A DNA stretch of 64,000 bases, from the NCBI GenBank assembly GCA_903906315.1, contig CAIVJW010000432.1, positions 1-64,000 of the forward strand, in the 5' to 3' direction. The DNA comes from an uncultured delta proteobacterium (GTDB lineage: Bacteria; Myxococcota_A; Polyangia; Polyangiales; Polyangiaceae). The position numbers and the translations under genes are program-made. The notes below the pieces were generated by a model, which saw only the letters and a list, made by a program, of their open reading frames with translations, was not told the origin of the DNA and did no database searches. Of the stretch, positions 21,534 to 28,261 are shown one piece after another (the stretch's first letter is position 1; every line of letters starts with the position of its first letter).

Positions 21534-24344
21534 CTACTTGGTCGGGTCGGCCGAGAAGCAGCAGCGGAAGCCGGTGTCGAAGAACTGGTAGCTCTGGCTG
21601 ACCGTGTAGAACGTGAAATCGCAGGTCGCGCCGTTCGGGTCCTGCGTGTCGAACGCGCCGCCGACGAGCTTGTAGCTCGAGTTCACGACGTCGCGCGCGA
21701 TCTCGCGGAGGTTGCCCGTCATGTCGAAGATCTTCGACGTCGACGGCGTGTTGCTGAGCTGGCCGGACCAATCCGACCAGCAGTTCTGCAGGAGGTTCGA
21801 TCCCGCGGGGAGGAGGCCGTTCTGCTGGCCCGGCGTCGGGCTGAAGTCGAAGGACGGCCCGAGGTTGCAGTACTTCGTCGCGGCGTCGTACGCGCTCGTG
21901 CAGGTCGCGCCGTGCGGCGCGTAGCCCCACTTGCACGTGTAGCTCGGCGTGACCCGGCACGCGGCCTGCCAGTCCGTGAGGGCGCAGATGTTGCCGCCCA
22001 TCGCGAGGCACGTCTGCTCGACCTCGGCCGGCGTCACGTTGAACCAGGGGATGCGGCCTTGCGCCGAGCAGGCCGGGGTCTTGTCCAGCGTCACGCCGGC
22101 GGGCGCCTGCGTCGTGTAGCCGTTGCCCGTGCCTGCCTGGGTGCCGTTCGCGCTCGGGCGGCTGGCCTCGTAGCTGTAGACCCACTTGCTCGCGCCGATC
22201 TGCGTCACCGCAGGCTGCACGAACGACGGGCTGCCGCCCTTGTTGTTGTACGGCTCGTCGATGAGGCCGTCGCAGTCGTTGTCGACGCCGTCGCACAGCT
22301 CGGTGCAGCCGCCCGGCAGGTTCGCGCAGTCGGCCTTCGCGGCGCTGCACTTCGTCGCCGCCTGGCCGTTGCACACGTACGTGCCCGTCTGTCGGCAGGC
22401 GCCGTCGCCCGGCGGCGGCTTGCCGTCGTCGCTCGCGCACGGCTTGCCGTAGTTCGGCACGTTCTCGTTGGTCGCGCCGTTGCAGTTGTTGTCGAGGGTG
22501 TCACACACCTCGGCCTGCGCCGCGCAGCTCGGGCTGCACACGTTCGCGGGGAACGTGCACTGCCACTTGCCCTGCTTGCACTGGACGGAGACCTGGCCGG
22601 CCTGGCACTCCGGGGCCGACGCCGCGGGGCTCACGCCGCACACCTGCACGGGCGAGGGCGCGGGCACGTTCTCGTCGACCTGCCCGTCGCAGTTGTCGTC
22701 CGTGCCGTTGCAGACCTCCTGCGCCTGCACGTACGCGCACGCGTACTCGCACTTGCCGTCCTTGGGGCTCGTCAGGTCGTAGTACCCCTGCTCGCACGCC
22801 TGGAAGACGCACGTCCCGTTCGAGCACGCGAACTGAGCGTGCACCGCGCCCGCGTTGCAGTCGTTGCCGCATTTGCCGCAGTTCGCCGGGTCGCCCGCGA
22901 GGTCCGGCTGCCCGGTGAGCTGGCCGTCGCAGTTCGCGTCGATGGCGCAGCCATCCTGTGCGCCCAGGGACGCCGTCACGGAGCCCTGGCAGACGATGGT
23001 GCCGCCCACGCACGCCTTCGTGCCGGCCTTGCACGCCGAGGTCGCGCCCGCGGGGGGGGGCGGGGCGACGTCGCAGGCGCCCGCGAGGTCCTTCGGGTTG
23101 TCGTCGATGGTGCCGTTGCAGTCGTCGTCGACGCCGTTGCACGTCTCGTCGGCCGCGGGGTCGACGTTGCCGACGCACTTGAGCGCGCCCGCGTTGCACT
23201 GGAACGTGCCCTTCGTGCACGGCGCGTTGTTGCTCTTGCCACACGCGCCGCCCTGGTCGATCGGGCTGTTGTCGACGATGCCGTCGCAGTCGTCGTCCTT
23301 GCCGTTGCAGGTCTCGAGCACCTGCCCCTGGAGGAGCACGTTCCCGCCGGAGCACTTCGGGGCGCCGCCGTCGCAAACGGTCGTGCCCTGGTGGGCGAGG
23401 GTCGCGCACTCGCCGTTCACGCTGCCGAAGCACGCGACGCCGATGGCGGGGTCGCCGCCGAGGTCGTCGACCGCGTCGATCTTGCCGTCGCAGTCGTTGT
23501 CGATGCCGTCGCAGATCTCGACGCCGCCGTTCGTCGGATCGCACTGGTAGTTGCAGGTGTTCGGCGGATCGCTGTCGAGGTGATGCCAGCAATCACCGGG
23601 GCCGTTGCACACGCAGCCCTTGAGGTTGCACTCCGCGTTGCCGCCCGCGTTGCAGGCCTTCTGCGGGTCGACGCGCTTGCACTCGGCGACGCCGTGCGGG
23701 ATGAGGCACTTGACGTTGCAGTCGCCGCAGTTGTCGACGCCGCAGAAATCGACGTCCTCGTCGACCTTGCCGTCGCAGTCGTTGTCCGTCTTGTCGCAGG
23801 CCTTGTCGTCGGCGGCCGTCTTGGTGCAGCCGTACTCGCAGGTGAGGCCGTCCCCATCGAGGTCGGTCCAGCCGACGTCGCACTGCTTGCACTCGCACGT
23901 GCCCTTCTGGCCGGCCTTCGCGGCCGGCTTGCACGAGATGCCGGACACGGCGCAGTTCTTCGCCAGCACGTAGCAGTCGTTCTCGCAGGTGCCGCACTGC
24001 TCGGGCTTGGTGAAGTCGAACGTCTCGTCGATCTTGCCGTTGCAGTCGTTGTCCTGGCCGTCGCACTTCTCGACGCCGTTGTTGGTCGGCGCGCACGTGC
24101 CGCCGGCGTCCTTGGCGCCGCAGTTGGGGAAGCAGTCGCTGCCCCCCTGGCCGCCCTGCCCGGCGTCGAACGTCGAGCCGCCGGCGCCGCTCGTGCCCGT
24201 GGTGGTCCCGGTCGTACCGCCGAGGGTGTCGGGGCAGTCCGCGTAGCAGAACGCGTCGGTGTTGCAGCCCGCCGTGCCGCCGAGGGTGAAGGCGAGGCCG
24301 ATCGTGGCGCTCGCGGCGCCGAGGAGCTTCCCGATGCGGCTCAT
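21534..24344 (-). CDS. Giant lipoprotein: MopE-type metal-binding repeats plus formylglycine-generating-enzyme-like domain
   Basis: A 936-residue predicted lipoprotein (lipobox TAGC, Cys27) followed by a Gly/Thr/Ser linker. About eight or nine MopE-type repeats of the form C-D/N-G-x-D-N/D-D-C-x-G-x-x-D-E/D lie between roughly residues 90 and 700. The C-terminal 220 or so residues resemble the FGE-sulfatase/SUMF1 fold (GYTTQAP, NVTPAEVEQTCLAMGGNICA, DMTGNLREI, then GFRCCF). The repeats resemble the copper-site motif of MopE and probably bind Ca or Cu. Whether the FGE-like domain is catalytic is unknown. The ATG overlaps the upstream stop (ATGA) and is preceded by AGAAGGAGGT, a near-perfect Shine-Dalgarno lying inside the upstream gene. 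Confidence 0.85.
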   Translation of the reverse strand: MSRIGKLLGAASATIGLAFTLGGTAGCNTDAFCYADCPDTLGGTTGTTTGTSGAGGSTFDAGQGGQGGSDCFPNCGAKDAGGTCAPTNNGVEKCDGQDNDCNGKIDETFDFTKPEQCGTCENDCYVLAKNCAVSGISCKPAAKAGQKGTCECKQCDVGWTDLDGDGLTCEYGCTKTAADDKACDKTDNDCDGKVDEDVDFCGVDNCGDCNVKCLIPHGVAECKRVDPQKACNAGGNAECNLKGCVCNGPGDCWHHLDSDPPNTCNYQCDPTNGGVEICDGIDNDCDGKIDAVDDLGGDPAIGVACFGSVNGECATLAHQGTTVCDGGAPKCSGGNVLLQGQVLETCNGKDDDCDGIVDNSPIDQGGACGKSNNAPCTKGTFQCNAGALKCVGNVDPAADETCNGVDDDCNGTIDDNPKDLAGACDVAPPPPAGATSACKAGTKACVGGTIVCQGSVTASLGAQDGCAIDANCDGQLTGQPDLAGDPANCGKCGNDCNAGAVHAQFACSNGTCVFQACEQGYYDLTSPKDGKCEYACAYVQAQEVCNGTDDNCDGQVDENVPAPSPVQVCGVSPAASAPECQAGQVSVQCKQGKWQCTFPANVCSPSCAAQAEVCDTLDNNCNGATNENVPNYGKPCASDDGKPPPGDGACRQTGTYVCNGQAATKCSAAKADCANLPGGCTELCDGVDNDCDGLIDEPYNNKGGSPSFVQPAVTQIGASKWVYSYEASRPSANGTQAGTGNGYTTQAPAGVTLDKTPACSAQGRIPWFNVTPAEVEQTCLAMGGNICALTDWQAACRVTPSYTCKWGYAPHGATCTSAYDAATKYCNLGPSFDFSPTPGQQNGLLPAGSNLLQNCWSDWSGQLSNTPSTSKIFDMTGNLREIARDVVNSSYKLVGGAFDTQDPNGATCDFTFYTVSQSYQFFDTGFRCCFSADPTK

Positions 24345-28261: not shown

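Follow-up and report, generated by a model that had tools for sequence, protein, structure and literature searches.

V and F, two MopE-repeat surface proteins with co-scaling stalks: probable legs of one two-headed structure in Polyangiales

V and F are two large MopE-repeat proteins encoded by adjacent genes in a 64,000-nucleotide stretch of DNA (the window; positions 1 to 64,000 of contig CAIVJW010000432.1, assembly GCA_903906315.1) from an uncultured member of the Polyangiaceae. V carries a VWA head, F a head that resembles formylglycine-generating enzyme (FGE). In our estimate (probability about 0.68), V and F are the two legs of one two-headed structure on the outer surface that are matched in length, lipid-anchored and present in near-equal amounts. 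For this structure we infer a physical V/F dimer, processing, bound Ca2+, ligands and a role in adhesion or binding. A first reading of the window (the original prediction) had proposed two anchored surface partners made in a fixed ratio. This partnership is supported by constant pairing, gene fusions and matched stalk lengths.

A physical V/F pair is supported most strongly by the co-scaling of the two stalks, a result that goes beyond the original prediction. Since V is anchored C-terminally and F N-terminally, both stalks run from the membrane to the head, and a side-by-side arrangement would lead one to expect matched lengths. In 55 pairs, the stalk lengths of V and F in residues correlate with r=0.95 (0.97 for those pairs alone that are split into two genes). 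Phylogenetic contrasts yielded 0.94-0.95 on three trees. In genomes with several pairs, the within-genome correlation is 0.977 (p=5e-5, partners shuffled inside each genome, none of the shuffles reaching the observed value). Repeat counts are correlated as well (r=0.82; contrasts 0.84; within genome 0.92). The core family displays V/F repeat counts of 11/8, 13/10, 14/10, 16/13 and 17/13-14, which means that extra repeats are added approximately one for one.

The pairing itself is highly conserved. Genome searches were performed with each head separately, and units were then collected by reconstruction of the open reading frames (ORFs). A broad FGE alignment proved too diverse for the collection scan; a closer FGE set was used. 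Across Myxococcota, 71 non-redundant V/F units were obtained, nearly all with the same pair in the same order; the order is reversed in two of them (L035, L048). Among the 58 split units, 53 have an exact 4-nt overlap, three a 1-base overlap and two no such overlap (in L068, gene V ends out of frame; L045 lies at a contig edge). A Shine-Dalgarno-like motif is present in 52 of 56 split units. Such a high recurrence of one gene pair, one order and one 4-nt overlap (53 of 58 split units) exceeds chance. The window's genome encodes three V/F units. Two units each were found in the cultured Polyangium fumosum DSM 14668 and in Polyangium sp. 6x1, 15x6 and y55x31. Frequent occurrence of each gene alone, named in the original prediction as evidence against it, was searched for and not encountered within Polyangiales: No MopE-bearing FGE gene clearly devoid of a partner was found in the assembled neighbouring sequence of Polyangiales loci fetched by the FGE head. 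Five apparently solo FGE genes (L022, L053, L067, L074, L089) are preceded by a MYXO-CTERM-tailed ORF that is truncated by the contig edge. The other partnerless FGE matches are gene fragments or belong to FGE-like genes that lack repeats.

In 13 units, a single ORF spans V and F (L034, L036, L037, L039, L040, L041, L059, L099, L110, L130, L131, L132 and L134). By parsimony on the VWA+FGE tree, the fusion state changed at least five times. At the V/F junction of these ORFs, a hydrophobic stretch and a lipobox stand within 50-100 residues of the MYXO-CTERM-like tail and its Arg cluster, on the C-terminal side, as exemplified by L134: GGGGCTCTTAGAATNEREPWAPIGLALAGLLLLAWRRRRVSSRALLRRGALVTGAAAMVLGNGGCDVDPF. 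A loss of membrane signals upon fusion was ruled out, because both tail and lipobox are retained. It is also unlikely that the fused ORFs are mere sequencing errors, as several lack a usable second start and the fused units form clades. The stretch 12-45 amino acids ahead of the lipobox Cys is free of in-frame start codons in L034, L037 and L134, so that a separate start of the F part is hardly possible there. In the straightforward reading, the fused form would be a polyprotein that myxosortase and LspA cleave. L034, L037 and L040 have further C-terminal extensions beyond the FGE-like head; judged by eye, the one in L040 resembles a proprotein-convertase P domain.

In the window, both reading frames are open and follow one another on the minus strand (Table 1), and the coordinates and main statements of the original prediction proved to be correct. 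Its ATGA overlap and near-perfect Shine-Dalgarno sequence inside V were also confirmed: The sequence 5' of the F start codon reads CCAGAAGGAGGTGGCGCG, with AAGGAGG seven bases ahead of the ATG, and supports translational coupling. In line with the "about 20" MopE repeats claimed, 19 were counted in V and F together. All of them contain the loop D-x-[DN]-x-[DN]-[GA]-x-x-[DN], and this motif suggests that they probably bind Ca2+. PF11617 (Cu-binding_MopE) matches V with E=2.9e-39 and F with E=4.6e-28. It was the only Pfam family found in the full-length proteins. A phmmer search of full-length V and F against PDB sequences was uninformative and did not match MopE.

Table 1. Features of the V/F gene pair in the window
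Feature	Position	Strand	Remarks
Gene V	24341..28261	-	1306 amino acids: signal peptide, VWA head, 11 MopE repeats, Cys-rich segment, MYXO-CTERM-like tail
Sec signal peptide of V	28154..28261	-	amino acids 1-36 (...STAAIAHA, then EPQ); read off the translation, putative cleavage site
VWA head of V	27254..28165	-	amino acids 33-336; MIDAS D62-x-S64-x-S66, T205, D253
V stalk	25427..27253	-	11 MopE repeats with DxDxDGxxD-type loops; approximate ends
V stalk base	24503..25426	-	Cys-rich, without MopE loops, plus Gly/Thr-rich linker; approximate ends
MYXO-CTERM-like sorting tail of V	24344..24502	-	GGGGCSC...hydrophobic...RRTRRRR
Shine-Dalgarno sequence of gene F	24352..24358	-	AAGGAGG, within the 3' end of V
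Start/stop overlap of V and F	24341..24344	-	ATGA
Gene F	21534..24344	-	936-amino-acid lipoprotein: lipobox, 8 MopE repeats, FGE-like head
Lipoprotein signal peptide and lipobox of F	24264..24344	-	...GGTAG, then C27; putative lipidation
F stalk	22250..24068	-	8 MopE repeats; approximate ends
FGE-like head of F	21543..22229	-	C-type-lectin/FGE fold, without catalytic Cys pair

Because both window heads gave weak matches or none in Pfam and NCBIfam on their own, homologues were brought in for each of them. The VWA head of the window alone is a weak match to PF00092 (E=0.038), and this family is matched by 26 of 50 homologous VWA heads. All 50 heads share five invariant residues of the metal-ion-dependent adhesion site (MIDAS), which in V are D62, S64, S66, T205 and D253 (D30, S32, S34, T173 and D221 in head numbering). 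The predicted fold of the V head is that of a VWA domain, with a best Z of 18.9 to 4fx5 over 178 residues. Together, conserved residues and predicted fold support the MIDAS-like domain that had been assigned to V.

The FGE-like head of the window alone had no match in Pfam. PF03781 (FGE-sulfatase) is matched by 30 of 43 homologous F heads (best 1.4e-19). The predicted fold is of the FGE/C-type lectin kind, with Z values of 16.9 to CalU17, 15.5 to human FGE, approximately 15 to Mtd, the tropism determinant of a phage, and 14.5 to PorK. The catalytic cysteines of human FGE, which we take to be Cys336 and Cys341, have no counterpart in the F heads, as judged by an alignment to human FGE and by cysteine counts in the 43 members. 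Exactly one Cys is located between GG and GFRCC in 41 of 43 heads; of the other two, one has no Cys there and one has an extra Cys ahead of GG. This lone Cys aligns with a later Cys of human FGE (346 in our own numbering), away from the catalytic pair. As the catalytic Cys pair is absent, the sequence argues that the F head is a binding or structural domain and no FGE-type enzyme. Thus, the FGE-like domain of the original prediction is upheld as a fold, and any enzymatic meaning has to be abandoned. FGE, SUMF2, CalU17, Mtd and PorK/GldK have this predicted fold in common (Z 14-17). The F head differs from them in that it is disulphide-rich, lacks the catalytic cysteines and sits on a MopE stalk. 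SUMF2 and PorK are non-catalytic users of the FGE fold.

Both proteins carry lipid-type anchor signals, in agreement with the anchored surface proteins proposed originally. The signal peptide of F ends in a lipobox Cys (MSRIGKLLGAASATIGLAFTLGGTAG, then C), which is kept in the split homologues compared. The V tail has the tripartite architecture of MYXO-CTERM. TIGR03901, the MYXO-CTERM model (cut-off 20 bits), is matched at E<0.1 by 36 of 40 homologous V tails, the best with 1.7e-8. Furthermore, the window's genome encodes the myxosortase MrtC (NF040594, 307.4 bits at a cut-off of 195 bits). V resembles the known MYXO-CTERM/myxosortase substrates in its signal peptide, Gly-rich Cys motif, hydrophobic helix and Arg cluster. 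It differs from them in a window tail that scores under the curated cut-off and, in the 13 fused units, in an internal tail directly followed by a lipobox. A gene for a CPBP intramembrane protease is located at 32595-33600 (minus strand; the upstream end is approximate), adjoining the glutamyl-tRNA synthetase gene. It matches archaeomyxosortase MrtA with 83.7 bits, under the cut-off of 200. Situated about 4.3 kb from the V/F pair, it is possibly an extra sorting enzyme.

A two-legged structure could be assembled as follows. After Sec export, V would be retained through its MYXO-CTERM tail, and cleavage by myxosortase would leave it with a C-terminal lipid anchor, while F would be lipidated at its N-terminal lipobox Cys. 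The two chains would run in opposite directions on the membrane, with the heads at the far ends of the stalks. MopE loops with Ca2+ and disulphide staples may render the stalks stiff. If the stalks are parallel, matched lengths would be needed to let the heads sit together. Translational coupling would ensure near-equal amounts of V and F; some lineages would instead achieve this by cleavage of a polyprotein by myxosortase and LspA. The heads would be the diverging specificity part on stalks that are kept alike, and the likely job of V/F would be to bind a surface, a neighbouring cell or matrix.

Mosaic genes are consistent with such a division of labour. In several genomes, two V genes are located ahead of one F gene. 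The tandem V genes of four genomes (G021, G042, G015, G148) have heads that are 49-52% identical at the protein level and stalks that are 98-100% identical, and their DNA identity climbs steeply where the VWA domain ends. In L065 of the single-contig genome G045, two tandem V-F units are present, in which both V and F are mosaic: The VWA and FGE heads display about 50-60% DNA identity, the stalks mostly 83-100%. These mosaics are consistent with stalks homogenised by gene conversion and with heads as the carriers of specificity. Tandem VWA genes of this kind are carried by L029, L072, L077 and L129, with 2.7-kb stalks that are 98-100% identical, heads that are about 50% identical and a sharp boundary behind the VWA domain. 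In its most elaborate form, the proposal is a length-matched two-legged receptor whose conserved stalks bear interchangeable heads and in which a 1:1 ratio is achieved by coupling or by a polyprotein that crosses the inner membrane twice. Myxosortase and LspA would cleave the latter at a sorting hairpin with the two signals back to back. The Arg cluster of this hairpin would serve both as basic tail of MYXO-CTERM and as basic start of the next signal peptide. We regard this form as tentative, with a chance slightly short of even.

Several points weigh against two legs of one structure. The window V tail scores only 13.8 bits with TIGR03901 (E=0.059), under the 20-bit cut-off, with the tripartite tail present. 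The F stalk amounts to approximately 0.76 times the V stalk in residues, i.e. the lengths are proportional, not equal. Most sequences originate from metagenome assemblies, with the pair also carried by cultured Polyangium and by single-contig genomes. Both V and F kinds occur singly in one distant family (L138, L140, L141), and the pairing therefore characterises the order Polyangiales with its nearer relatives and does not extend to all relatives. Finally, the length matching might have a common mutational cause. By that explanation, unstable-repeat loci expand and contract in both arrays and the matching has no function. Similar repeats do make up both arrays, and stalk gene conversion is clear in the tandem V genes. 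Nevertheless, an added unit in one gene is roughly matched by one in the other (11/8, 13/10, 16/13), the correlation holds after phylogenetic correction, and V-V and F-F conversion alone cannot equalise V with F, whose sequences differ. Hence, we consider a purely mutational origin rather improbable. Two independent surface proteins, co-expressed in one operon and without contact, are an unlikely explanation, albeit one to be taken seriously: Solo relatives exist in the distant family, and a 4-nt overlap is the commonest type of overlap in bacterial operons. This is countered by the partner-by-partner stalk match within genomes, the repeated in-frame fusions and the extremely constant pairing.

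Known functions of related domains have to be considered, too. V might be a gliding adhesin of the CglB type, i.e. the VWA protein by which a machine resembling focal adhesions grips the substrate, with F as its partner, since NF033757 is matched by 30 of 50 VWA heads (best 2.9e-12). The window head, however, reaches 25.5 bits at an equivalog cut-off of 200, other loci in the window's genome match better (65 bits), and the match is confined to the VWA head. CglB is a lipoprotein and is not known to have a V-type stalk, tail or FGE-like partner. We therefore see in CglB a myxobacterial surface protein with a related VWA head, and a gliding function of V is improbable. Copper capture, suggested by the name of PF11617 and by MopE of Methylococcus capsulatus, is very improbable. 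The copper site of MopE, composed of two histidines and a kynurenine from Trp130, resides in the MopE* domain (PMC3423442), outside the acidic repeat, and the repeat loops of V and F look Ca2+-binding. In the same study, calcium shielded MopE* from proteolysis (PMC3423442). Apart from the common PF11617 repeat, V and F differ from MopE in that their repeats build long stalks. Least of all do we expect F to be an active enzyme of the FGE type that acts on V: PF03781 in 30 of 43 members and the predicted FGE fold stand against a catalytic Cys pair without counterpart and a single Cys at a later position in 41 of 43.

The solo FGE-MopE genes of the distant Myxococcota family without VWA partner are located at L138:5320-8196 and L140:7099-10041. 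They have similar neighbours on either side, with downstream ORF tails alike. In G105 and G252 from a distant family, FGE-MopE frames of about 950 codons were found with one internal TGA each.

A close parallel to the V/F pair in myxobacteria is provided by TraA/TraB of Myxococcus xanthus, whose ORFs overlap, and by MXAN_5598, a fusion with an internal MYXO-CTERM (PMC11980579). Like V and F, they combine overlapping genes for a MYXO-CTERM-anchored surface protein and its partner with a natural fusion. Whereas the partner in TraA/TraB is an outer-membrane barrel/OmpA protein, that of V is a repeat-stalked lipoprotein with an FGE-like head and a co-scaling stalk. Pfam domains of the TraA/TraB type (PA14-type head, OmpA) were not found in full-length V and F. 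By analogy only, V/F can be compared with integrins, which have two legs with adjacent heads, one of them a MIDAS-containing VWA-type head. They differ in the bacterial lipid anchors and the other partner head, and no homology is claimed past the VWA fold. A literature search retrieved no description of myxobacterial MopE-repeat surface proteins or of pairs of VWA and FGE-like lipoproteins.

The V/F pair is flanked by a divergent gene for a WYL-type regulator upstream (28387-29583, plus strand) and a gene for a pyrimidine-nucleoside phosphorylase downstream (19978-21312, minus strand). Relatives of the phosphorylase are located beside 22 loci, WYL-type neighbours at about eight. Because these neighbours recur in related genomes, they identify the locus in the window as an old one with conserved synteny. 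A third operon subunit was looked for at the V/F loci and not seen; only these chromosomal neighbours recur.

If V and F are indeed two legs of one structure, they would constitute a widespread adhesion or recognition complex of social and predatory bacteria, and cultured Polyangium allows its direct study. The co-scaling of separate stalks would be an unusual evolutionary mark of physical pairing that could reveal other partner proteins. The fused forms would be a natural test of a C-terminal lipid-anchoring tag placed mid-protein, beside a lipobox. The question of how a sorting tag functions in such a position has been posed for MXAN_5598 (PMC11980579).
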